Shown here: piece after piece, positions 31,441-44,839 of the stretch
Position numbering within the stretch: position 1 is the stretch's first letter
Layout: each line of letters opens with the position of its first letter
Assembly (NCBI RefSeq): GCF_000241525.1
Contig: NZ_AHIL01000055.1
Coordinates: forward strand, 62,001-126,000
Direction: 5' to 3'
Length of the DNA stretch: 64,000 bases
Source: Comamonas testosteroni ATCC 11996
GTDB taxonomy: Bacteria > Pseudomonadota > Gammaproteobacteria > Burkholderiales > Burkholderiaceae_C
Notes under the pieces: generated by a model
The model's input: the letters and a program-made list of their open reading frames with translations, nothing else
Database searches by the model: none
What the model was told of the DNA's origin: nothing
Made by a program: the position numbers and the translations under genes

Positions 31441-32547
31441 ATGTCTGTTCCTCAAGCTCTCGCCGGCACACCATTGCGCACCGACTTTCTCAGCGCCAGC
31501 GACGCTGCCCGGCTGGTCGCGCGCATCGGCATCACCCAGGTGCTACGCCTGATCAGCCAAGCCCTGGAGGCCGACTTCGGCCGCTGGCAGGACTTCGACA
31601 AAAGCGCGCGCACAGCCGCCCATTCCGCCAGCGGCGTGATCGAGCTGATGCCGGTGGCCGATGCGCGGGACTACGCCTTCAAATACGTCAACGGCCACCC
31701 GCACAATCCGCGTCTGGGACTGCCTACGGTGATGGCCTTCGGCGCGCTGGCCGATGTCGCCACCGGCATGCCGCGCTTTGTCAGCGAGCTGACGCTGACC
31801 ACGGCCTTGCGCACTGCCGCCACATCCGCCATGGCCGCGCGCCATCTGGCGCGCGCCGGCAACCGCAGCATGGCACTGATCGGCAATGGCTCGCAAAGTG
31901 AATTTCAGGCTCTGGCCTTCATGGAGCTGCTGGGCGTGCGCGAGCTGCGCCTGTTCGACATCGACCCGGCCGCCTCGCAAAAGCTGCTGCGCAACCTGCA
32001 GCCGTTTCTGCCCGGCTTCTCTGCCACGGCCATCGTCTGCACCAGCGTGCGGGACGCAGTGGCCGGCACCGACATCGTGACCACCGCCACCGCCGACAAG
32101 ACCCGCGCCACCATCATCCCCGGCCACCTGCTGGAGCCCGGCATGCATATCAATGCGGTGGGCGGAGATTGCCCCGGCAAGACTGAGTTCGATGCCAGCG
32201 CCCTGCAGCGCGCGCAGGTCTTTGTCGAGTACGAGCCGCAGACGCGCATCGAGGGCGAGCTGCAGCAAATGCCGACCGACTTTGCCGTGACCGAGCTGTG
32301 GCGCGTGCTGCAGAAGCTGGCGCCGGGCCGGACATCGGACGCCCAGATCACCTTGTTCGACTCCGTGGGCTTCGCACTGGAGGACTACTCGGCGCTGCGC
32401 ACCATGCACAGCCTGGCGCAAGGCGCGGGCCTGCTGTCTCAGATCGAGCTGGTGCCGGAGCTCGCCGACCCCAAGGATCTGTTTGCCATGGTGAGGCAGG
32501 CATCGAATCCCCAGATCATCAATCTTGCGGCCCGTAAGACGGCCTGA
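31441..32547 (+). CDS. Ornithine cyclodeaminase
   Basis: A 368-residue enzyme of the OCD/mu-crystallin family that converts L-ornithine to L-proline and ammonia with bound NAD. The substrate lysine lies in [13 protein letters not shown], the nucleotide-binding turn in [16 protein letters not shown], and the catalytic Asp in [13 protein letters not shown] strong AAGGAGGAGGT precedes the ATG. Arginase is encoded 13 bp downstream, so the pair gives arginine to ornithine to proline, releasing urea and ammonia. Confidence 0.9.
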
Positions 32548-32560
32548 AGCGGAGCGGCTC

Positions 32561-33514
32561 ATGGCATACACATCGTCCACACTGATCGGTCTGCCCACCG
32601 ATATCGGTGCCTCGCGCCTTGGCGCGGCCATGGGGCCCGATGCCCTGCGTGTGGCCCAGCTCGGGCCAGCCCTTGAACGGCTGGGCGTGCAGGTCAGCGA
32701 TCTGGGCAATCTGAGCGGCCCCGCCAACCCGCGTGGCGCGCGCGATGCCCAGGGTCTGCGCAATCTGGCCGAATGCCTGAGCTGGAACCGGATCGCCCAT
32801 GACGCGGTACTGCAGGTGCTGCAGCAAAACCGGCTGCCCATACTGCTGGGTGGCGACCATACGCTTGCCACAGGCTCCATCAGCGCCGTGGCCCGCCATT
32901 GTCGCGCCACGGGCAAGCAGCTGCGCGTGCTCTGGCTGGATGCTCACTCGGACTGCAACACCCCCGAAAGCTCGCCCACGGGCAATCTGCACGGCATGCC
33001 GGTGTCAAGCCTCTGCGGACTGGGGCCGACGGAGCTGGCCTCGCTGTCGGGCACGACTCCCGCTCTGCCCGCCTCATCGTTCTGTCAGATTGGCCTGCGC
33101 AGCGTGGACGAGAGCGAAAAGCACATGATCCGAGAGCTGGGGCTGGAGGTCTACGACATGCGGGCCATCGACGAGCTGGGAATGCGTGAAGTGATGCGCA
33201 GGGCACTGCTCACCTTGCTGGGACGCAACGACAGGGACATCCACCTGCATCTGAGCTTTGATGTGGACTTTCTCGATCCTGACATTGCTCCCGGCACCGG
33301 CACGCCGGTACGCGGCGGCCCCACCTATCGCGAGGCCCAGCTGTGCATGGAAATGATTGCCGATACCGGCCGTCTTGCCTCACTGGACATTGTGGAGCTC
33401 AACCCGGCGCTGGACCTGCGCAACCAGACGGCGGAGCTGGTGGTGGACCTGGTGCAAAGCCTGTTCGGCCAGAGCACGCTGATGCGCCCCGCGCCGCAAG
33501 CGGCACCCCGCTGA
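32561..33514 (+). CDS. Arginase
   Basis: A 317-residue ureohydrolase. The manganese site is complete: GGDHTLATGS, WLDAHSDCNTPESSPTGNLH and SFDVDFLDP. TGNLHGMP and the DAHSDCN form are typical of true arginase (RocF-like) rather than agmatinase. It hydrolyses L-arginine to ornithine and urea. GGAG lies 7 bp before the ATG at 32561. It shares a transcript with ornithine cyclodeaminase. A Crp/Fnr-type gene converges on it from the right. Confidence 0.9.
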   Translation: MAYTSSTLIGLPTDIGASRLGAAMGPDALRVAQLGPALERLGVQVSDLGNLSGPANPRGARDAQGLRNLAECLSWNRIAHDAVLQVLQQNRLPILLGGDHTLATGSISAVARHCRATGKQLRVLWLDAHSDCNTPESSPTGNLHGMPVSSLCGLGPTELASLSGTTPALPASSFCQIGLRSVDESEKHMIRELGLEVYDMRAIDELGMREVMRRALLTLLGRNDRDIHLHLSFDVDFLDPDIAPGTGTPVRGGPTYREAQLCMEMIADTGRLASLDIVELNPALDLRNQTAELVVDLVQSLFGQSTLMRPAPQAAPR

Positions 33515-33542: not shown

Positions 33543-34262
33543 TCAGCCGCCGGCCGCCTGGCGCAGGGCTTCGAGGTCGTGGATGGTCACGCGCCCGTAG
33601 GCCGCTTTGATCACGCCCATCTGCTCCAGCGTGCGCAACTCCTTGTTCACGGTCTGGCGCGAGACCGCCACCATGGCCGCCAGATCGCCCTGCGAGATGC
33701 GCAGGCTCACGGCCTGCCCGCCTTCGACGGCCTTGCCGTGGATCAGCGCCAGCCGCGCCAGCGCATCGGCCACATGGTTGGCGGTATGGCCCAGAGCCCG
33801 GCGCTGCTGGGTGGCGATCTGCTCATGCAGGCGCTCCAGTACCAGCATGCAGACATCGCGCCACAGCGCCGGATGCGCATCCAGCACGGTCATGAACGCC
33901 CCTCCCGGCAGGTGCACGAGCACCGTGCCCTCCTGCACCACGAAGTGATAGACGAAGCAGGTGTTGCCCAGCATGCGCACCAGGCTCACGATCTCTCCGG
34001 GGCCGTGCAGCGACAGCACGAAGCGCACGCCCGCCGCATCCACGCCCTCCACCGCCAGACGCCCCGAAGCCACCACCAGCACCTCGCGGCGCGATCGCTC
34101 GCCGACCATGAGAGGCGTTCGCTTGTCATAGCGCCTCAGCCGCGCCACGGCCACCACTTCGTCCAGCACGTCATCCGGCCAGTGCCTCATCAGCGGGCAC
34201 AGCCTCAGGGCACGCCGTATCAGCGCCACGGAATTGTCTGCGGGGTGGTGTTTGCGAGGCAT
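33543..34262 (-). CDS. Crp/Fnr-family transcriptional regulator
   Basis: A 239-residue protein. An N-terminal cyclic-nucleotide-binding-like fold (LMVGERSRREVLVVASGRLA, LSLHGPGEIVSLVRMLG) precedes a Crp-type winged helix (ISQGDLAAMVAVSRQTVNKE). No cysteine cluster for a 4Fe-4S centre is seen at the N-terminus, so it is not a classic FNR. A longer start (TTG, 34319) is open. It is divergent from the porin-led catabolic cluster, with a perfect dyad in the gap, and is the likely regulator of that cluster. Confidence 0.88.
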   Translation of the reverse strand: MPRKHHPADNSVALIRRALRLCPLMRHWPDDVLDEVVAVARLRRYDKRTPLMVGERSRREVLVVASGRLAVEGVDAAGVRFVLSLHGPGEIVSLVRMLGNTCFVYHFVVQEGTVLVHLPGGAFMTVLDAHPALWRDVCMLVLERLHEQIATQQRRALGHTANHVADALARLALIHGKAVEGGQAVSLRISQGDLAAMVAVSRQTVNKELRTLEQMGVIKAAYGRVTIHDLEALRQAAGG

Positions 34263-34320
34263 GGATCTGTGTGCGCGGGAAACAGGCTCCGGGTTAGTCC
34301 CGGGCTCGAGTGCCGCCAAT

Positions 34321-34336
34321 TGTCAAAGCGTTGACA
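34321..34336. promoter_or_regulatory. Crp-like dyad in the divergent Crp/Fnr-porin promoter
   Basis: TGTCAAAGCGTTGACA is a perfect inverted repeat and can be read as TGTCA-N6-TGACA, the same architecture as the Crp site TGTGA-N6-TCACA. The right half TTGACA also equals a consensus -35 box toward the porin gene. It lies 59 bp from the regulator start and 92 bp from the porin start. Confidence 0.55.
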
Positions 34337-34427
34337 GAGTGCCAACCGCACTGGTTCGGATAGTAGCAGTCACACCGCAGCGCAAGGCTGTGCGCCCGTG
34401 CAAAAGCACAAACACAGGAGACATATC

Positions 34428-35492
34428 GTGAAGCACAAGCAACGGCTGGCCGCCGCAGGCTGGGCCATATTCGGCAGTGCCGCCTGGGCGCAGAGCAGCG
34501 TGGAGATCTTCGGCGTCATGGACGTCCATCTCAACAGCGCCCGATCGGGGGCCACGCGGCTGACACGCCTGGAGGACGGCGGCAGCGCCGCCTCGCGCAT
34601 AGGCCTTCGCGGCGTCGAGGAGCTGGGCGGCGGCTGGCGCGCCCGCTTCCTGCTCGAGGCAGGCGTCACTCCGGACACCGGCATGGGCACCATTCCCGGT
34701 CCTTCCCTGGCCTTCACCCGCCAGTCCTTCATCGGCCTGAGCGCACCCTGGGGCCACGTCGATATGGGCCGCATGTACACGCCCATGTTCAGTGCCCTGT
34801 TCCGCGCCGATCCGTTCGGCATGAATTCGCTGTTCTCTCCCACCAACCTCGGCTATAGCACCGACGGCCAGCCGCTCCTGAAGGCCTTTGCAGCGCGCGG
34901 CAGCAATCTCGTGCGCTACCGCCTTCCCGAGGGCCAGCCCTGGGTGCTGGACCTGGCCTACTCCTTCGGCGAGGTGCCCTCGCCCAACAGCAACAACGCC
35001 CGGCTCTACGGCGGCACCGTGGGCTGGAACCAGAAGCCCTTCTTCATGGCCTACAGCGTCCAGAACTCCACAGAAGGCAGCGCTGCAGCGCCCGTGGCCA
35101 CGCCGCGCACCAGCCGCTACCAGACGCTGGTGGCCAGCTGGGAGGCCATGCCTCAGCTGCGCCTGAGCGGCAGCTACAGCCGCGCCAGCGTGAACCAGGC
35201 CGGTACGGGCGACGCCCGCCTCCTGCAGCTGGGCACGGAGTGGAGCGCGACCTTCACCTCCAGGGCGCTGCTGTCGGTGGCACGCCGCAAGGTCGACGGC
35301 TCCCAACGCCGCCAGACCGCCTGGACCCTGGGCTACGACCACTACCTGAGCAAGCGCACCACGCTGTACGCGCGCTGGCTGCAACTGAGCAACGCGGGCG
35401 GCTCCTCGGTATCCATCGCCAATGTGCCCGTGGTGGCTGATAGCGGCAACGGCGTGCGTTCGCTGGCACTGGGCGTTCGCCACAACTTCTGA
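34428..35492 (+). CDS. Gram-negative porin
   Basis: A 354-residue outer-membrane porin. A signal peptide ends in GSAAWAQSS, and the mature part begins VEIFGVMDVHLNSARS, the usual first strand of betaproteobacterial trimeric porins. The protein ends in LALGVRHNF with the terminal Phe needed for barrel assembly. The start is GTG at 34428, with AGGAG 7 bp upstream. It opens the seven-gene cluster and would let a small, probably anionic, compound cross the outer membrane. Confidence 0.9.
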   Translation: MKHKQRLAAAGWAIFGSAAWAQSSVEIFGVMDVHLNSARSGATRLTRLEDGGSAASRIGLRGVEELGGGWRARFLLEAGVTPDTGMGTIPGPSLAFTRQSFIGLSAPWGHVDMGRMYTPMFSALFRADPFGMNSLFSPTNLGYSTDGQPLLKAFAARGSNLVRYRLPEGQPWVLDLAYSFGEVPSPNSNNARLYGGTVGWNQKPFFMAYSVQNSTEGSAAAPVATPRTSRYQTLVASWEAMPQLRLSGSYSRASVNQAGTGDARLLQLGTEWSATFTSRALLSVARRKVDGSQRRQTAWTLGYDHYLSKRTTLYARWLQLSNAGGSSVSIANVPVVADSGNGVRSLALGVRHNF

Positions 35493-35504
35493 CAGAGGAA
35501 CTTC

Positions 35505-37643
35505 ATGCAACCATCAATGGACTTCGATTTCGCCGGGCTGGATGCCCTGTTCTCGCCACGCTCCATCGCCGTCGTCGGCGCCACCGACTCGCCGCAGCGC
35601 ATAGGCGGCATTCCTCTCGACTACCTGCTGCGCTTCGGCTACGCGGGCCGCCTGCATGCCGTGAACCCACGCGCAGACACGGTGCAGGGCCTGTCCGCCC
35701 ACGCGCGGCTGACCGACATCCCCGAGCCCGTGGATCTGGCCATCGTGGCCGTGCCCCAGGCCCATGTGACTGCGGTACTCGAGGACGCGGCTGCGGCCCG
35801 CGTGCGCTCCATGGTGCTGTTCTCGTCGGGCTTTGCCGAGACCGGCGCTGAAGGCGCGGAGGCTCAGCAGGCCCTGCAGGAACGCGCCCGCGCAGCCGGC
35901 ATACGTCTCATAGGCCCCAACTGCCTGGGCTTCATGCGCCCCGGCCACCAGACCTATGCCACCTTCTCGCCCGCCCCCAATGCAGGCCGCGTCAAACCCG
36001 GGCGCATAGGCCTGGTCAGTCAGTCCGGGGCCTTTGGAGCCTATGCCTACAGCATGGCGCGCGAGCGCGGTCTGGGCCTGTCCCTGTGGGCGACCACGGG
36101 CAACGAAGCCGACGTGCAGCTGGCCGACGGCCTGGCCTGGCTGGCCCGCGATCCGGAGACCGATGTCATCATGGCCTACATGGAGGGCTGCCGCGACGGC
36201 GAGCGCCTGCGCGCGGCCCTGGCGCTGGCGCGCGAGCGCGGCAAGCCCGTGATCATGTTCAAGGTGGGCACCAGCGAGCTGGGCGCGGCTGCGGCCGCCT
36301 CGCATACGGCATCGCTGGCCGGCAACGATGCCGTCTATGACGCCGTGTTCCGCCAGTACGGCGTGCTGCGCGCACACACCATCAGCGACTTCTTCGCGCT
36401 GGCGGCCAGCGCCTCCATCGCGCCGATTCCGCGCAACCGCTCCCTGGGCCTGCTCACCGTCTCTGGCGGCGTGGGAGCCATGATGGCCGACGACGCCAGC
36501 GCCGCCGGTCTCGACGTGCAGCCCCTGTCCGAGGCCGCACAGCGCCAGTTGCTCGAATGGGTGCCGTTTGCCGCGCCACGCAACCCCGTGGACATCACGG
36601 GCCAGGTCACCAACGACGTCACCCTGCTCGAGCGCAGCGCCGAGCTGATGATGCACGACCGGAACTTCGCGAGCTGGCTGGGATTTTTCGCCGCGGGCGG
36701 CCTGTCCGACGCGTTCTGGGCCGTGCTGCGCTGCCTGGTGGAAAAGCTGCGCGCCGCCCACCCCGACACGCTGCTGGCCATCTGCACGCTGTGCTCCGAC
36801 GCGCGCCGCGCCGAGATGGAAGCCCTGGGCTGCCTGGTGTTCTCGGACCCCAGCGCGGCCATACGCTGCATAGGCGCCCTGGCCTCGCTGGCCGATGCGC
36901 CGCGCGCCGCGCCGCTGCCGTCGGCTTGCCCGGCCCAGCCCGCGCTGCAGCTGCCCGCGGGCAGCCTGTCCGAAGCCCGCAGCATGGAACTGCTGGCCAA
37001 GGCCGGCATGCCCGTGGTGCCCCACCAGCTGGTGCGCACCCAGCAGCAGGCGGCGCAGGCCGTGCAGGCCCTGGGCGGCACCATTGCGCTGAAGGTGGCC
37101 AGCGCCGACATCGCGCACAAGTCCGAGGTCGGCGGCGTGGCGCTGAACCTGCGCACGGCCATGGATGCGGGCGCCGCCTTCGAGCGCATTCTCGCCAGTG
37201 CGCGCCAGGCACGACCCGAAGCGCAGCTGGACGGAGCGCTGGCCGCGCGCATGGTGCACGGCGGCGTCGAATGCATTGCCGGCGTGCACCGCGATCCGGT
37301 GTTCGGCCCGGTGCTGATGTTCGGCCTGGGCGGCATCCACGTCGAAATCCTGCGCGACGTGTCGCTGCGCGCACTGCCCATCACCAGGGACGATGCCCTG
37401 GCCATGGTGCAGGAGCTGCGCACCTTCCCCATCCTGGCCGGCGCGCGCGGCAAGCCGCCCGCGGACCTGCAGGCGCTGGCCGATGCGCTGGTGGCCCTGG
37501 CCGACTTTGCCCAGCGCTGCGGCGACACCCTGTCCAGCGCCGAGATCAACCCGCTGATCGCCCTGCCCCGGGAGCAGGGCGGCTGCGTGGCGGTCGATGC
37601 GCTGGTGATAGGCGCCGACCGCTGCACAGTCCCAGCCCGCTGA
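35505..37643 (+). CDS. NDP-forming acyl-CoA synthetase (acetate-CoA ligase family)
   Basis: A 712-residue fusion of the alpha and beta parts. Residues 1-130 form a CoA-binding Rossmann domain (PRSIAVVGATDSPQRIGGIP); the middle succinyl-CoA-synthetase-like region carries the phosphohistidine in AAASHTASLAGND; the C-terminal ATP-grasp has KVASADIAHKSEVGGVALNL with the second histidine. No GNAT domain is attached, so it is not a protein acetyltransferase. It should activate an organic acid with CoA and ATP (or GTP). Sphingomonad FerA (feruloyl-CoA synthetase) is of this type, but the substrate here is unknown. It lies 12 bp after the porin gene. Confidence 0.9.
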   Translation: MQPSMDFDFAGLDALFSPRSIAVVGATDSPQRIGGIPLDYLLRFGYAGRLHAVNPRADTVQGLSAHARLTDIPEPVDLAIVAVPQAHVTAVLEDAAAARVRSMVLFSSGFAETGAEGAEAQQALQERARAAGIRLIGPNCLGFMRPGHQTYATFSPAPNAGRVKPGRIGLVSQSGAFGAYAYSMARERGLGLSLWATTGNEADVQLADGLAWLARDPETDVIMAYMEGCRDGERLRAALALARERGKPVIMFKVGTSELGAAAAASHTASLAGNDAVYDAVFRQYGVLRAHTISDFFALAASASIAPIPRNRSLGLLTVSGGVGAMMADDASAAGLDVQPLSEAAQRQLLEWVPFAAPRNPVDITGQVTNDVTLLERSAELMMHDRNFASWLGFFAAGGLSDAFWAVLRCLVEKLRAAHPDTLLAICTLCSDARRAEMEALGCLVFSDPSAAIRCIGALASLADAPRAAPLPSACPAQPALQLPAGSLSEARSMELLAKAGMPVVPHQLVRTQQQAAQAVQALGGTIALKVASADIAHKSEVGGVALNLRTAMDAGAAFERILASARQARPEAQLDGALAARMVHGGVECIAGVHRDPVFGPVLMFGLGGIHVEILRDVSLRALPITRDDALAMVQELRTFPILAGARGKPPADLQALADALVALADFAQRCGDTLSSAEINPLIALPREQGGCVAVDALVIGADRCTVPAR

Positions 37644-37683
37644 GCGCGGCCCGCATGTCCTCTGCCCCAACCCAAGGATTCGC

Positions 37684-38796
37684 ATGAAGACCCATCACAC
37701 CCAAGCCCCGGCCGCTGGCGGCCGCAACGACGGCGCCATGCAGGGCCTGCCTGCAGGCAGCTGCGCAGCCGGTTCCACCACCGGCAACACAGGCCTGTCC
37801 CGGCGCAGCTGCCTGCTGCATCTGGCGGGCCTGGCTCCCGCACTTGCTCCCGTATTCGCCCTGGCTCCGGCCGCCGCACGCGCCCAGGGCAGCTACCCCA
37901 GCCGGCCCGTGCGCATCATCGTGCAGTTCGCGGCCGGCGGCTCCTCCGACATCCTCGCGCGCACCCTGGGCGACGGCCTGTCCAAGCGCCTGGGCCAGCC
38001 CGTCATCGTGGAAAACCGCAGCGGCGCGGGCGGCATCATTGGCACGGACTACGTGGTCAAGAGCGCTGCCGACGGCTACACCCTGCTGCTGACCGTGCCC
38101 GGCCCCATCGCCGCCAACCTGGTGCTGTACAAGAAGCTGCCCTACGACCCGCGCACCGACCTGCGCATGGTCTCGGACGTGGCCGGCCAGCGCACCGTCA
38201 TGGCCGTGCACTCCTCCGTGCCTGCCAGGACCTTTGCCGAGCTGATCGAGCTGGTGCGCAAGGCGCCCGGCGACTACGCCATGGGCTCCTGGGGCGCGGG
38301 CACGCAGCCGCACCAGATACAGGCCTTCATGGAGCGCAAGTACGGCGTCAAGGTACTTCACGCCGCCTACAAGGGCGAAAGCCCCATGGTCTCCGACCTC
38401 ATCAGCGGCATGATCCAGATGACCTCGGCCTCCATCTCCACGCTCAAGCCCTATATCGAGTCCGGCCGGCTGCGCGCCCTGGCCGTGCCCGGCACCAGCC
38501 GCGCCACCGCCCTGCCCGACGTCCCCACCTTTGCCGAACAGGGCTTCAGGGACGACGTCTACACCTTCATGGCGCCCACCTCGCTGATGGCTCCGGCCAA
38601 GACGCCCGACGCCATCGTCGAGCGCATAGGCCGCGAAGTGGCCGTGGTGGTCCGACAGCCCGAGATGCTGCGCCGCCTGCAGGAAATGGGGGCCGACCCC
38701 ATAGGCAACACGCCCGCCCAGGCCGCCAGCGACTACCAGTCCTACCTGCCCGTCGCCATTGCGCTGACCCAGTCCACCGGCGTGCAGCCGAACTGA
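37684..38796 (+). CDS. Bug-family solute-binding protein, Tat-like signal
   Basis: A 370-residue TctC/Bug protein with an unusually long N-terminus. LSRRSCLLHLAGLAPALAPV near residues 39-58 looks like a twin-arginine signal, cut near AAARAQG. The binding loops YPSRPVRIIVQFAAGGSSDI and VENRSGAGGIIGTDYV are canonical. An AAGG site precedes the ATG at 37684. A second Bug gene closes the cluster, so the pathway may use two ligands or two affinities. No TctAB membrane subunits are encoded nearby. Confidence 0.88.
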   Translation: MKTHHTQAPAAGGRNDGAMQGLPAGSCAAGSTTGNTGLSRRSCLLHLAGLAPALAPVFALAPAAARAQGSYPSRPVRIIVQFAAGGSSDILARTLGDGLSKRLGQPVIVENRSGAGGIIGTDYVVKSAADGYTLLLTVPGPIAANLVLYKKLPYDPRTDLRMVSDVAGQRTVMAVHSSVPARTFAELIELVRKAPGDYAMGSWGAGTQPHQIQAFMERKYGVKVLHAAYKGESPMVSDLISGMIQMTSASISTLKPYIESGRLRALAVPGTSRATALPDVPTFAEQGFRDDVYTFMAPTSLMAPAKTPDAIVERIGREVAVVVRQPEMLRRLQEMGADPIGNTPAQAASDYQSYLPVAIALTQSTGVQPN

Positions 38797-38851
38797 AGCC
38801 CCGCACTCTTTCCCCGAACGCCTTCCTGTTCCTTTTGCAAAGGTAGATTCC

Positions 38852-40243
38852 ATGACACAGTCCACCACGACCCTGCAGCAGACGCGCCAGGCCCTGGCCC
38901 GCTCCATAGGCCAGGCCGCCTTCGTCTACGGCTACCCGCTCACCGAGACCTACCGCACCTGCGCCCTGCAGACCGCCGAGCAGGCGCGGCTGCGCCCCGG
39001 CAGCTCGGCCGGCTCGGATGTGCGCGCGCCCATGAACACGCTGCACCATGCGCCGCGCCCCTCCACCCACGAGGACCGCGACGTGGTCACTCCGGCCAAC
39101 GACCTGCTGTATTCCATGGCCTGGCTGAACCTGGAAGGCGGCCCCATGCTGCTGACCATTCCGTCCTCGGCCCGCCATCCGGGGCGCTACTTCGTGCTGC
39201 CGCTGTACGACGCCTATACCGAGAACTTCGAGAACCTGGGTCCGCGCAACTGCAATCCCGAAGGCGAGACCGTGGTCCTGCTCGGCCCCGGCGGCCAGGT
39301 GCCGGCATCGATGTCCCATCTGCGCGCGGTGCACTGCCCCACCCACCTGGTCTGGCTGATAGGCCGCATCCTCGCAGGCGACGAGAGCGACTGGCCCGCA
39401 GCGCGCGCTCTGCAGTCGGAGATACGCCTGGAGCCCGCGCCCGGCACCGTGCCCCAAGGACGCCCCGCTGCCATCGAGCACTGGTGCGGCGATCCCGTGG
39501 ACGCCATGGCCGCAGCCTTCGAGAACGGCGAGCCCGCGCAGCAGGTGGCGCCGCGCTTTTTCACCAATCTCTGCCAGGCGCTGGCCGAGGCCCCCGGCCG
39601 CATCGAGGACCGCGGCCTGCTCGCCTGGCTGGGCCAGGCCGGCCTGGTGCCCGGCGTGCCTTTTTCCTGGGAGGCGCTGGACGATCCCACGCGCGCCGGC
39701 CTCATCGAAGGCTTTGCCGACGGCGTGCAGACCGTGGCGGCCATGGGCAGCAACCGCCGTCCCCGGCCGTGGACCATGACGACCAATACCGGCCGCTACG
39801 GCAGCCACTTCCTGATCCGCGCCCGCACCGCCTACCTGGGCCTGGGCGCACTGGCCACCACCGAGGCCATCTACTCCGCCTCGCACTACGACACCGACCT
39901 CGAGCCGCTCAACGGCCAGCAGCGCTATGTGATGCGCTTCGAAGCGGGCGACCTGCCTCCGGCCGATGCCTTCTGGTCCGTGACGCTGTATGACAGCGAC
40001 CGCTTTCTCTACCCCAACGACATCCGCCGCCACGCCATCGGCGACCGCACGCCAGACCTTCAGTTCGGCGCCGACGGCAGCCTGGAGATCGGGATAGGCC
40101 ACGAGCGCCCTGACAACAGCACTGCCAACTGGCTGCCCGCCCCCTCCGGCCGCTTCTATCTGATACTGCGCATGTACTACCCGCGCGACGGCGTGCAGAG
40201 CTGGCGCATTCCCGCCCTGCAGGTACAGGCGGTGCACGCATGA
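38852..40243 (+). CDS. DUF1254/DUF1214 protein, first of a tandem pair
   Basis: A 463-residue protein. The N-terminal region (FVYGYPLTETYRTCA, then DVVTPANDLLYSMAWLNLEG) matches DUF1254 and the C-terminal part (PPADAFWSVTLYDSDRFLYP and NWLPAPSGRFYLILRMYYP) matches DUF1214. Most members carry a signal peptide; none is visible here, so it is probably cytoplasmic. The biochemical role of the family is unknown. AAGGTAG lies before the ATG. Its stop overlaps the start of its paralogue by 4 bp, suggesting a heteromeric partnership. Confidence 0.87.
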   Translation: MTQSTTTLQQTRQALARSIGQAAFVYGYPLTETYRTCALQTAEQARLRPGSSAGSDVRAPMNTLHHAPRPSTHEDRDVVTPANDLLYSMAWLNLEGGPMLLTIPSSARHPGRYFVLPLYDAYTENFENLGPRNCNPEGETVVLLGPGGQVPASMSHLRAVHCPTHLVWLIGRILAGDESDWPAARALQSEIRLEPAPGTVPQGRPAAIEHWCGDPVDAMAAAFENGEPAQQVAPRFFTNLCQALAEAPGRIEDRGLLAWLGQAGLVPGVPFSWEALDDPTRAGLIEGFADGVQTVAAMGSNRRPRPWTMTTNTGRYGSHFLIRARTAYLGLGALATTEAIYSASHYDTDLEPLNGQQRYVMRFEAGDLPPADAFWSVTLYDSDRFLYPNDIRRHAIGDRTPDLQFGADGSLEIGIGHERPDNSTANWLPAPSGRFYLILRMYYPRDGVQSWRIPALQVQAVHA

Positions 40244-41604
40244 CAGCCATCACCGCCACCTCAACGGCCGCCGAACTGCAGGCCCTGGCCGAGCAAGCCG
40301 TGACCTGGGCCTACCCGCTCTACGAGATGCGCCGCATGCGCGCGGCCACCTCGCCCCGGCGCACCGAGGCGGGCCTGGCCGCGCCCGAAGGCATGCGCTG
40401 GTGCAACCTGTTCGCCCACGCGCGCCAGCTGCTGCGCGCCGGCACCAGCCGCGTGGTCACACCCAACAACGACACGCTCTACACCAATGCCTGGCTGGAC
40501 CTGGGCGCAGGACCGCTGGTCATCGACGTGCCCGACACCGCGGGGCGCTACTACGTGCTGGGCCTGCTGGACTTCTACACCAATCCCTTCGCCCACATAG
40601 GCCCACGCCTGACCGGCACCCAGGCGCGCTCCTTCCTGGTTACGCCGCCGGGCTGGAGTGGCGCGCTGCCCGCGGGCTTCGATGCGCCCGGCGCCCACAT
40701 CCAGGCGCCCACGCGCTGGCTCTGGATCATAGGCCGCATCCTGGTGGACGGCCCCCGGGACCTGGCGGCCGTGCATGCGCTGCAGGACGGCTTCAGCATG
40801 GCCCCGCTGGCCGACTGGCTGGCCGGCCAGGCGGCAGTCGCGCCCGCACCCCACGCCTTTGCGCCGGACTGCGACCCCCAGGCCCCGGCCACGGCAGCCC
40901 ACTTCGCTGCCCAGGTCAACGCCGCGCTGCGGGAGAATCCGCCGCCCGCGGCGCAGCGCGAACTGGTGGAGCGCTTTGCAGCCGTGGGCCTGGGCAGCGG
41001 CTGCACCGGGCCGCACGAGGAGCAGGCCCCGGTCCTGCAACAGGCACTGGACGCCGTGCTGCCGCAGCTGCGCAGCGCACAGTCCGGCACGAGCCAGGCC
41101 TCGGGCTGGATCATGCCGCCGCTGGTGATGGACAGCTTCGGCGACGACTACGCCACCCGCGCCCAGGTAGCGCTCAAGTACATAGGCATGCTGGACGGGC
41201 GCGAAGCCGTCTACCCCATGGCCTGGACCGATGCCCGGGGCCAGCCCCTGGACGGCGGCTCGCGCTACTGCCTGCGCTTCGCACCCGGGGCCCTGCCGCC
41301 CGTGGACGCGTTCTGGTCCATCACCCTGTACGACGCGCGCAGCTACATGCTGGTGGACAACCCGCTGGACCGCTACGCCATAGGCGACCGCAGCACGGGC
41401 CTTCGCCGCGACGCCGACGGCGGCCTGAGCCTGCACATACAGCACGCCGCGCCGCACAGTGAAACCGCGCGCGCCAACTGGCTGCCCGCGCCCGAAGGCC
41501 GCTTCTACCTCTGCCTGCGCGCCTACCTGCCGCGCACCGACATGCTGAACGGGCGCTACGCACTGCCGCCGCTGCAGCGCCTGAACGATGAACAGGAGAC
41601 CTGA
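40240..41604 (+). CDS. DUF1254/DUF1214 protein, second of a tandem pair
   Basis: A 454-residue paralogue of the preceding protein. It shares the marks WAYPLYEMRRM, VVTPNNDTLYTNAWLDLGAG, PVDAFWSITLYDARSYMLVD and NWLPAPEGRFYLCLRAYLP. The spacing of the blocks is nearly the same in both, so a duplication is likely. There is no signal peptide. It starts inside the stop of the previous gene (ATGA) and ends one base before the next start, so three proteins are made from one tightly coupled message. Confidence 0.87.
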   Translation: MTAITATSTAAELQALAEQAVTWAYPLYEMRRMRAATSPRRTEAGLAAPEGMRWCNLFAHARQLLRAGTSRVVTPNNDTLYTNAWLDLGAGPLVIDVPDTAGRYYVLGLLDFYTNPFAHIGPRLTGTQARSFLVTPPGWSGALPAGFDAPGAHIQAPTRWLWIIGRILVDGPRDLAAVHALQDGFSMAPLADWLAGQAAVAPAPHAFAPDCDPQAPATAAHFAAQVNAALRENPPPAAQRELVERFAAVGLGSGCTGPHEEQAPVLQQALDAVLPQLRSAQSGTSQASGWIMPPLVMDSFGDDYATRAQVALKYIGMLDGREAVYPMAWTDARGQPLDGGSRYCLRFAPGALPPVDAFWSITLYDARSYMLVDNPLDRYAIGDRSTGLRRDADGGLSLHIQHAAPHSETARANWLPAPEGRFYLCLRAYLPRTDMLNGRYALPPLQRLNDEQET

Positions 41605-41605
41605 C

Positions 41606-42859
41606 ATGGACAGCAAAGACGACGACAAGCCCTTCCTGCTCGTGGGCACGGGCAGCGAAACCGTGGCCCCTGGCCTGCACATGCTGCGCGGCCAGGGCCA
41701 GTCCTTCGTGGCCGAGACGGACGCCGGCCTGGTGGTCGTGGACGCCGGACCCGGCGGCTCCGTCACCCAGGGCATGATCGACAGCCTGCGCGCGCTCAGC
41801 GACGCCCCCGTGCATGCGCTGTGCTACAGCCACGGCCACATCGGCTACAACGCCGGCGTGCCTCAGTGGCTGGAGCATGCGCGCCAGCGCGGCGAGCCCG
41901 CGCCCCGCCTCATCGCCCACCGCAACGTGCTGCGCCGCCACGCACGCTACCGCGAGACCGAGGCCCTGCAGCACCGCATGGCCGAAGTGCAGTTCAACCG
42001 CTCACCCGGCTTCTTCGAGCGCCGGCTGGCCATGCACGAACCCACCGAGACCTTTGACCAGCGCCTGGTCATAGGCAGCGGCGAGCAGCGCATCGAACTG
42101 CTGTGGGCTCCGTCCGAGACCGACGACGCCATCGCCCTGTGGAGCCCCGCGCAGCGCGTGATCTACGGCGGCGCGGCGCTGCTGGACTCCATTCCCAACA
42201 TCGGCACGCCGTTTCGCACGCTGCGCGACACCGTGCGCTGGGCCGGAACGCTCGAAGCCCTGGCCGCGCTTGATCCGCGCATCGCCGTGCGCGAATTCGG
42301 CCCCCTGATCGAGGGCGAGGCCGAAGTGCAGAAGGTGCTCACCCACACGGCCCGCGCGCTGCGCTGGCTGCGCGCCGAAGTGGTCAGCCTCATGAACCAG
42401 GGTCTGGGCGAGCAGCAGGTGCTGGCCCGGATGCACTACCCCGAGGAGCTGTTCGGCGTGCCCTGGATGAAACCCACCTATGGCGACCCCAGCTACATCG
42501 TGCGCGACATCTACCGCTCGGAAAACGGCTGGTGGGACCGCAATCCCACCACCCTGCACCCCGAGCCGCCCGAAGCCGTGGGCGCCGCCGTGGCCCGGGC
42601 CATCACCGACAAGCCAGCCGTCATCGCCAGCGCCCAGGCCCTGGCCGACGCCGGCCAGTGGCAACTGGCCCTGCACGTCATCGACCTGCTGGCCACCGCC
42701 CATGGCGACGCGCCCGAACTCGCCCAGGCGCGTGCCCTCAAGGCCGCCTGGCTGCGCGAGCGCGCGGCCCAGGTCGCCAGCTATGTATCGCGCAATCTCT
42801 ACAAAGTCAGCGCCGACATGATCGAGCAAGGCACGCAGGGCCGCTTCGGCATCCGCTAG
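41606..42859 (+). CDS. Alkylsulfatase-like metallo-beta-lactamase-fold protein with degenerate metal motif
   Basis: A 417-residue protein. The N-terminal half has the MBL fold and the C-terminal half an alkylsulfatase-dimerisation region (YGDPSYIVRDIYRSENGWWD, then ARAITDKPAVIASAQALADA). The usual HxHxDH appears as SHGHIGYN: the first two His remain while the Asp-His pair is replaced. The block normally read as HAPGETDD is WAPSETDD, and the usual AGD is YGGA. Either the metal site is altered or the enzyme is inactive. CAGGAG precedes the ATG at 41606. It has no signal peptide, unlike SdsA-type secreted alkylsulfatases. Confidence 0.8.
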   Translation: MDSKDDDKPFLLVGTGSETVAPGLHMLRGQGQSFVAETDAGLVVVDAGPGGSVTQGMIDSLRALSDAPVHALCYSHGHIGYNAGVPQWLEHARQRGEPAPRLIAHRNVLRRHARYRETEALQHRMAEVQFNRSPGFFERRLAMHEPTETFDQRLVIGSGEQRIELLWAPSETDDAIALWSPAQRVIYGGAALLDSIPNIGTPFRTLRDTVRWAGTLEALAALDPRIAVREFGPLIEGEAEVQKVLTHTARALRWLRAEVVSLMNQGLGEQQVLARMHYPEELFGVPWMKPTYGDPSYIVRDIYRSENGWWDRNPTTLHPEPPEAVGAAVARAITDKPAVIASAQALADAGQWQLALHVIDLLATAHGDAPELAQARALKAAWLRERAAQVASYVSRNLYKVSADMIEQGTQGRFGIR

Positions 42860-42894
42860 CCCTCCCGCTAGCCAGTCCCATCCAGGAGACATCC

Positions 42895-43890
42895 ATGCAC
42901 CCTCAACCGTACCACCTGCGCCGCTGCCTGGCCCTCGCCGCAGCGCTGGCCTCCGCCACCTGCGGCACCGCCCATGCGCAAGGCACCGCCGGCTACCCCA
43001 GCCGGCCCGTGACCCTGATCGTGCCCACGGCGGCGGCCGGCGGCACCGACACCATTGCCCGCCTGTTCGCCGACGCGCTGGGCAAGGCCATGAAGCAGCC
43101 CTTCGTGGTGGACAATCGCCCCGGCGCCAACGGCATCATCGGCGTCGATTCCGTGGCCAAGGCCCCGGCCGACGGCTACCGCCTGCTGTTCACCTACGCG
43201 GCCACCATGGCGGTCAACCCCAGCCTCTACCGCAAGCTGCCCTACGACCCGCTCAGGGACTTCGTCCCCATCGCCCAGATCGGGCGCGGCGGCAACCTGC
43301 TGCTGGTCAGAAAGGACCTGCCCGTCAAAACGCTGCAGGAATTCGTGAGCTATGCCAAGGCTCATCCCGACACGCTCAACTACTGCTCCTGGGGCCTGGG
43401 CTCGGGCGGCCACCTGACCATGGAAAGCCTGAAGAAGCAGGCCGGCATCACCATGACCCACATCCCCTACAAGGGCTCCAGCCCCTGCGTGCAGGACATC
43501 ATGGGCGGGCAGGTGGATGCGGGCTTCGGCGACACCTCCTCCACCGTGGAACTGGTCAAGGCCGGCCGCGTGAAGGCGCTGGCCCACAGCAGCTCGGGGC
43601 GGCTGCCGTCCCTGCCCGAGGTGCCCTCCATGACCGAGGCCGGCTACCCATTCAAGAACTACTCGTGGTACGGCATCTTCGCGCCGGCCAAGACCCCGCC
43701 GGCCATCGTCGCGCGGCTCAACGAGCAGGTGCTGCGCGCGCTGCGCGACCCGGCCCTGATCCAGCGCATGCGCGAACTCAACTTCTCGGACCTGCCGCTG
43801 ACCACGCCCGAGCAATTCACCCAGACCCTGCGCCAGGACCTGGACGACTGGAGCCAGCTGGTCAAGGAAACCGGCGTGCAGCTCGACTAG
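42895..43890 (+). CDS. Bug-family solute-binding protein closing the cluster
   Basis: A 331-residue exported receptor: a Sec signal peptide ends at GTAHAQG, then the canonical loops YPSRPVTLIVPTAAAGGTDT and VDNRPGANGIIGVDSV. The C-terminal part is complete and ends ETGVQLD. CAGGAGACATCC precedes the ATG at 42895, only 35 bp after the previous stop. It probably captures the substrate, or a related one, of the enzymes encoded upstream. A family 1 repeat 43 bp downstream marks the end of the unit. Confidence 0.9.
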   Translation: MHPQPYHLRRCLALAAALASATCGTAHAQGTAGYPSRPVTLIVPTAAAGGTDTIARLFADALGKAMKQPFVVDNRPGANGIIGVDSVAKAPADGYRLLFTYAATMAVNPSLYRKLPYDPLRDFVPIAQIGRGGNLLLVRKDLPVKTLQEFVSYAKAHPDTLNYCSWGLGSGGHLTMESLKKQAGITMTHIPYKGSSPCVQDIMGGQVDAGFGDTSSTVELVKAGRVKALAHSSSGRLPSLPEVPSMTEAGYPFKNYSWYGIFAPAKTPPAIVARLNEQVLRALRDPALIQRMRELNFSDLPLTTPEQFTQTLRQDLDDWSQLVKETGVQLD

Positions 43891-44101: not shown

Positions 44102-44839
44102 TCAATGCTGCAGGATCTTGTTGAGGAATTCCTTGGTTCGCGGCTGGCGGTTTTCGGGATGGCCGAAGAACTCTTCCTTGCTGCAGTCTTCCAGAATCTT
44201 GCCGCCCACGTCCATGAAGATCACACGGCTGGCCACCTTGCGCGCAAATCCCATTTCGTGGGTCACGCACATCATGGTCATGCCTTCGTTGGCCAGGCCC
44301 ATCATCACGTCCAGCACTTCGCCGACCATTTCGGGATCCAGTGCCGAAGTGGGTTCGTCGAACAGCATGACGATGGGATCCATCGACAGAGCGCGCGCAA
44401 TGGCCACGCGCTGCTGCTGACCACCGGAGAGCTGGCCGGGGAACTTGTCCTTGTGAGCGGTCAGGCCCACGCGGTCCAGCATCTTGAGGCCACGGGTCTT
44501 GGCGTCGGCAGCACTGCGGCCCAGCACCTTCATCTGTGCGATGGTCAGGTTCTCTGTCACCGACAGGTGGGGGAACAGCTCAAAGTGCTGGAACACCATG
44601 CCCACGCGGCTGCGCAGCTTGGGCAGATTGGTCTTAGGATCGTGCACTGCCGTGCCGTCCACAAAGATCTCGCCCTTCTGGAAAGGCTCCAGCGCATTGA
44701 TGGTCTTGATCAGCGTGGACTTGCCGGAGCCCGAAGGGCCGCACACCACCACCACCTCGCCCTTGTTGATATTGGTGGAGCAATCGGACAGCACCTGAAA
44801 GCTGCCGTACCACTTGGAAACGTTCTTGAGTTCAATCAT
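44102..44839 (-). CDS. gltL: Glutamate/aspartate ABC transporter ATP-binding protein
   Basis: A 245-residue ATPase of the polar amino acid uptake family. Walker A is GPSGSGKST near residue 34, the Q-loop [16 protein letters not shown], the signature [13 protein letters not shown], Walker [15 protein letters not shown], and the switch His THEMGFAR. It energises the GltJK channel with substrate from GltI. It is the last gene of the four-gene minus-strand operon and is separated from gltK by a family 2 repeat of about 80 bp. Confidence 0.93.

Follow-up and report, generated by a model that had tools for sequence, protein, structure and literature searches.

Nucleoside diphosphate (NDP)-forming acyl-coenzyme A (CoA) synthetases have been solved as ligases for 4-hydroxybutyrate (8wzu) and 3-hydroxypropionate (9y43) and as an ATP-dependent dimethylsulfoniopropionate (DMSP) lyase (7cm9). 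The receptors TphC and Bug27/69, for terephthalate and quinolinate respectively, belong to the TctC family, and the group III alkylsulfatases (SdsA1, Pisa1, SdsAP, YjcS) are metallo-beta-lactamase (MBL)-fold proteins with a dimerisation domain. Structures of DUF1254/DUF1214 proteins have been available since 2007 (2p3y), and those of VPA0106 (3u07) and VPA0735 (2p3y, 3vb9) are titled uncharacterised or hypothetical. In this work, we describe a locus of Comamonas testosteroni ATCC 11996 that brings relatives of these proteins together. It lies in a stretch of 64,000 nucleotides (the window; contig NZ_AHIL01000055.1, positions 62,001 to 126,000) on contig C9 of the 5.41 Mb genome, and consists of a Crp/Fnr-family regulator gene and, divergent from it, genes for a porin, an NDP-forming acyl-CoA synthetase, a TctC-type receptor (Bug1), two DUF1254 proteins (DUF1254a and DUF1254b), an alkylsulfatase-like MBL-fold protein (hereafter the MBL protein) and a second receptor (Bug2).

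The architecture is known in kind, namely organic-acid uptake combined with CoA activation, and what is new is the presence of two unassigned protein types in the set. On balance, we favour the reading that the locus is a catabolic operon dedicated to one specific organic acid and under local regulation, based on the compact block, its conserved order, its clean boundaries and a conserved palindrome of its own. The first-pass annotation knew of no described pathway with this set, and our literature searches, which covered open-licence PubMed Central (PMC) papers, agree with it: they returned neither such a pathway nor a function for DUF1254.

Gene order, empty sites and a conserved palindrome

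The plus-strand run comprises seven genes (34398-43890), in the order porin-synthetase-Bug1-DUF1254a-DUF1254b-MBL-Bug2, with intergenic distances of 12, 40, 55, -4, 1 and 35 bases, 55 being the maximum. All eight genes, the divergent regulator included, lie at the positions and carry the domains that the first-pass annotation had given, and the tight packing it had pointed out is present in both instances, i.e., the 4-base overlap of DUF1254a with DUF1254b and the one-base gap between DUF1254b and the MBL gene.

In a first survey of 61 genomes (37 of the genus, our own included, and 24 of the order), an MBL orthologue with at least 82% identity was found in eight, and the full order from the Crp regulator to Bug2 is kept in 8/8 of these orthologue-bearing genus members, the window included; the MBL proteins of the window and of genome G016 share 98% identity. 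Among 399 genomes drawn from the family, 12 carry an orthologue at E <= 1e-40, nine of them new. The full order is present in seven of these nine, while locus L055 is cut by a contig end and L057 is rearranged. Of 369 genomes drawn from the class, only two pass E <= 1e-60, our own being one of them, so the system is patchy. As a minor point, the DUF1254b match at L056:9187-10481 (G139) is split into two overlapping pieces, which reflects either a frameshift or an error in sequencing.

Scanning genome contigs for named relatives, we obtained 102 stretches that matched a pattern; 81 were confirmed and the best 80 kept, which correspond to 78 loci. In 49 of the 78, the MBL gene has both the synthetase and DUF1254 nearby. 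In a core group of 33 loci, drawn up after viewing the locus maps (Comamonas, Delftia, Variovorax, Pseudorhodoferax, Xenophilus, Pseudacidovorax and metagenome-assembled genomes, MAGs), the complete order is found in 23, and five of the ten incomplete loci are cut by contig ends (L075, L079, L087, L088 and L133). The partners also occur together in 6/6 Alcanivorax-type loci; 23 other beta-proteobacterial loci contain the synthetase in 14, DUF1254 in 14 and both in 12, and DUF1254 is found in one of two loci from myxobacterial or delta MAGs. As a control, seven other MBL relatives of the genus (L032-L037 and L039) have a synthetase nearby in 0/7 and DUF1254 in 5/7 cases. The first-pass annotation had named free variation of the neighbours between related genomes as a finding that would refute its proposal. 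In the core group this refutation fails, the neighbours being constant to the extent given above, although wider relatives rearrange the set and lose members.

The block is flanked in the window by rocF (ending at 33514) on one side and glnQ (44102-44839) on the other. We examined the glnQ neighbourhood in 12 genus members, out of 51 with a glnQ match. In ten of them (L138-L147) rocF and glnQ adjoin directly, which makes a clean empty site, and in L148 pyrC adjoins glnQ, with the ornithine cyclodeaminase gene, rocF and the block all absent. The remaining locus, L137:6709-12757 (G018), is a decayed copy: matches to the porin, the synthetase and the regulator (73% identity) are retained, Bug1 and DUF1254a are broken up, no match is seen for DUF1254b or the MBL protein, and of Bug2 just the end survives. 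The best explanation is that the block was gained or lost as a unit, and G018 offers a natural comparison strain.

The regulator (33543-34319, minus strand) carries cNMP-binding (PF00027, E 2e-7) and Crp-type helix-turn-helix (PF13545, E 3e-16) domains. In front of it, at 34321-34336, lies the inverted repeat TGTCAA-AGCG-TTGACA. Comparing 28 regulator-porin gaps (one from the window, 26 from named loci and one from the decayed L137; since the organisms are related, the cases are not independent), we found TGTCAA-N4-TTGACA exact in 21, with one mismatch in one and with two in six, while 200 rounds of letter-shuffled gaps gave none. In 11 whole genomes, the exact palindrome occurs once, at the block, in nine, and twice in G006 and G182; a backward control pattern has no occurrence in the same genomes. 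We infer from these patterns that the palindrome is a putative operator at which the regulator would bind. The FNR subgroup, which senses oxygen, is marked by an N-terminal cysteine cluster and the site TTGAT-N4-ATCAA; the regulator sequence shows no cysteine cluster, and its candidate site differs from that of FNR. Of the two extra occurrences, the one in G006 lies on a contig of 4.3 kb, where no frame of at least 110 residues runs across the site. The one in G182 (L163:724-1516) sits where a further Crp/Fnr-type frame begins, with HD-type and aldolase-II-type frames close by (all judged by eye), and such a position would be in keeping with autoregulation by a regulator of this kind.

Proposed degradation of an organic acid

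Under the operon reading, the divergent Crp/Fnr protein would control its own gene and the operon through the palindrome. The porin (34398-35492; PF13609, E 5e-40) would pass the acid through the outer membrane, and the two Bug proteins would capture it on behalf of a membrane transporter whose genes lie elsewhere. In the cytoplasm, the DUF1254 proteins and the MBL protein may process the acid, either before or after the CoA step: most likely, a single-metal site of the MBL protein would hydrolyse a bond of the ester, thioester or lactone type, and DUF1254 would serve as its partner enzyme or hold the substrate. The synthetase would form the CoA ester, and beta-oxidation enzymes encoded elsewhere would finish the degradation. 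The first-pass annotation had likewise seen a system that covers entry through the outer membrane, capture and CoA activation and includes three cytoplasmic proteins; this part of its proposal is supported, and in the three proteins no signal peptide is visible by eye.

Relatives of the locus add the kind of enzymes that such a scheme would call for. The Alcanivorax-type order (e.g., L122) runs tripartite ATP-independent periplasmic (TRAP) permease, NMT1-type receptor, synthetase, receptor, DUF1254, MBL, porin, two acyl-CoA dehydrogenases and enoyl-CoA hydratase; these families were named by Pfam on one representative each, and the dehydrogenases through their clustering with one from Cupriavidus. 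Two acyl-CoA dehydrogenases and a family III CoA-transferase occur in several Cupriavidus loci, three of which also have an enoyl-CoA hydratase-type gene. In addition, plasmid pBB2 of Cupriavidus necator N-1 keeps together the synthetase, Bug receptors, two tandem MBLs, an alpha/beta hydrolase and an IclR regulator, with no DUF1254 annotated. These clusters point to acid degradation via a CoA ester. The organic-acid system that the first-pass annotation suggested is likely, as a catabolic one, while its guess at a sulfo- or aryl acid is not established and the link to a sulfo substrate is weak.

On the other hand, several observations weigh against the operon reading. None of the eight block proteins is a dehydrogenase or hydratase, and none is a TctA or TctB membrane partner, which was not sought elsewhere in the genome. 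Members are missing from certain core loci, namely the porin that would stand between regulator and synthetase (L062, L063 and L086), DUF1254b (L061 and L086) or Bug1 (L084), so not every member is always needed. The fetched stretch lacks a synthetase in 9 of the 23 other beta-proteobacterial loci, and both synthetase and DUF1254 in all 14 actinobacterial loci (mostly Acidimicrobia), several contigs being short; as the stretches reach at most 10 kb on each side of the MBL gene, and less on some contigs, the real absences are at most the counts given. Finally, the Cupriavidus dehydrogenases adjoin the MBL gene even where the stretch contains no synthetase or DUF1254, which means that the partnership is not strict.

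The MBL protein and the DUF1254 pair

The MBL protein (41606-42859, plus strand) has the MBL fold and an alkyl-sulfatase dimerisation domain, whose match ends at residue 409 of 417; an SCP-2 domain (PF14864) gives no match at E 0.001. Its N-terminus, MDSKDDDKPF, has no hydrophobic stretch, and no signal peptide is visible by eye. Residues H76, H78 and E171 of zinc site 1 are kept in 35/35 aligned rows, and D46, D173 and D174 are likewise invariant. Zinc site 2 is lost in the 32 orthologue-type rows, with D replaced by G80, H by Y81, the bridging acid by A, P, N or C190, and no His at 230/231, while three canonical paralogue rows retain these features and the bridging acid. The ligand roles are assigned after SdsA1. 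Thus, the protein shares with the group III alkylsulfatases, its closest solved relatives (17-22% identity in fold alignments), the fold, the dimerisation domain and the zinc site 1 ligands, but differs from them in lacking zinc site 2, the bridging acid, the SCP-2 domain and a visible signal peptide, and it should not be a standard alkylsulfatase.

The acid might nevertheless carry a sulfate ester or a similar oxyanion ester, which the MBL protein, alone or with DUF1254, would remove before CoA activation. The kinship with alkylsulfatases favours this idea, as do the PF00884 sulfatases next to relatives of the locus, at L096/L057 (one place) and L136; in L057, both sulfatases carry the CxPxR motif and lie within 17 kb. 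However, with the query used, sulfatases were found beside the relatives at just two of the 78 loci (L096 and L136), and since the six genomes examined contain 3 to 19 sulfatase matches each (19 in G142, to which one of the two loci belongs), this neighbourhood is suggestive at most. The lost zinc site 2 and bridging acid and the missing SCP-2 domain also speak against it, and a homologue without SCP-2 was inactive on sodium dodecyl sulfate, though its expression was also problematic (PMC6107682). We regard a sulfate ester as unlikely.

A bolder and still doubtful possibility is that the MBL protein is a single-metal enzyme with a 2-His-1-carboxylate site (H76, H78 and E171, possibly with Fe(II) instead of Zn). 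It would work with DUF1254/DUF1214 proteins, which would in turn represent an enzyme family of their own that is new, and the route of acid degradation, so far undescribed, would be common to beta- and gamma-proteobacteria and, for the MBL alone, to Acidimicrobia. If such a single-metal protein is active, it would mean new chemistry for a very large fold family. Our own genome has three MBL matches, one of them weak. Tandem MBLs of this type occur at L125:7011-9529, L129:8703-11179, L131:8659-11167 and L150:12562-15224, and in the first three the second-site D and H are absent from both copies. Around the actinobacterial relatives (L109-L112 and L114-L118) we observed a TauD-type dioxygenase, a HalD-like oxygenase, a P450, a Rieske oxygenase and a nitroreductase, named on representatives.

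DUF1254a (38852-40243; PF06863 and PF06742) and DUF1254b (40240-41604), both on the plus strand, have the two Pfam domains and the fold of VPA0735-like DUF1254/DUF1214 proteins; differing from the solved members, they form a tandem pair in what we read as an acid operon. They show no signal peptide by eye, and represent two of the four DUF1254 matches in the genome. The predicted DUF1254b model has a mean predicted local distance difference test (pLDDT) score of 93.2, and its high fold scores are restricted to uncharacterised structures. The a-type rows are 32-38% identical to the DUF1254b of the window. In a midpoint-rooted tree, the ten a-type rows group together (100/100), and so do 21 b-type rows (100/97). 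Outside both lie the DUF1254 proteins that occur singly, in Alcanivorax, L104 and L136. Each group spans Verticiella, Cupriavidus, Noviherbaspirillum, Variovorax dokdonensis and Limnohabitans, and the two branching orders closely match, apart from that of L129/L131. This indicates that the duplication is old and that the pair seems to have travelled together across lineages, judging from the tree. Versions with a single DUF1254 are found in L061, L086, Alcanivorax and some Cupriavidus.

It could be argued that the MBL and DUF1254 proteins are not pathway enzymes but sensors, scaffolds or binding proteins, which adjust uptake or shield the cell against the acid or its CoA ester. The loss of half of the MBL metal site and the lack of a DUF1254 function in the searched literature would agree with it. 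Against this stand the six invariant MBL residues and 32 DUF1254 columns that are invariant in 36/36 sequences, with many Arg, Asp, Trp and Tyr among them, i.e., charged and aromatic residues, as expected of active sites; we therefore consider a non-enzymatic role quite improbable. Several lineages link DUF1254 to one synthetase, to one metallo-protein that is half degenerate and to one regulator that appears to be local, and with a single promoter, single deletions and natural empty-site relatives its function becomes directly testable.

A second type of DUF1254-MBL pair, in which the N-termini are hydrophobic and an HFHADH motif is present, lies beside another MBL-fold gene at L037:8098-11087 (contig C21 of our own genome) and in L032-L035. 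In L033 it lies behind a protein that we take to be DUF1329-like.

Synthetase, receptors and surroundings

The fused alpha-beta synthetase (35505-37643, plus strand) comprises CoA-binding (PF13380), succinyl-CoA-ligase-like (PF13607) and ATP-grasp (PF13549) domains, the same as the solved NDP-forming synthetases. It aligns nearly end to end with the 4-hydroxybutyrate-CoA ligase 8wzu (339 bits), including the histidines of the SHT and HKS motifs, which we take to be the catalytic or active-site histidines, and scores 315 bits against the 3-hydroxypropionate-CoA ligase 9y43. Its scores against the six NCBIfam models listed all fall short of the cut-offs (at best 380 bits, with 1200-1300 required; for TIGR02717, 361 with 567 required), so no substrate can be assigned by family. 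Within its own genome, it is the sole strong PF13607 match; the one weaker match, in a 307-residue frame, is probably a succinyl-CoA ligase.

DMSP lyase works by CoA ligation followed by elimination. With 7cm9 among the closest solved relatives (246 bits), the synthetase could be of this lyase type and act on a substituted propionate, in which case the MBL and DUF1254 proteins would deal with the leaving group or the product. As both hydroxyacid-CoA ligases outscore the lyase, we see very little chance for this scenario.

Bug1 (37684-38796; PF03401, E 2e-61) and Bug2 (42895-43890; PF03401, E 4e-70), both on the plus strand, are TctC family members like TphC and Bug27/69, and the block differs from those systems in having no TctAB permease. 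Since the genome has 98 TctC matches, the Bug neighbours alone carry little weight. Although receptors this common might suggest a chance assembly of unrelated neighbours, we reject that idea, as the conserved gene order and the clean rocF/glnQ empty sites refute it and the conservation of the palindrome also speaks against it.

Two start codons may differ from the coordinates given above. For the regulator, ATG 34262 is more likely than TTG 34319; for the porin, GTG 34428, which follows AGGAGA, is a possible start. Just upstream of the block, at 31441-33514, ornithine cyclodeaminase-like and arginase-like frames (assigned by eye) overlap by up to 23 bases, and these two frames remain next to glnQ where the block is absent.

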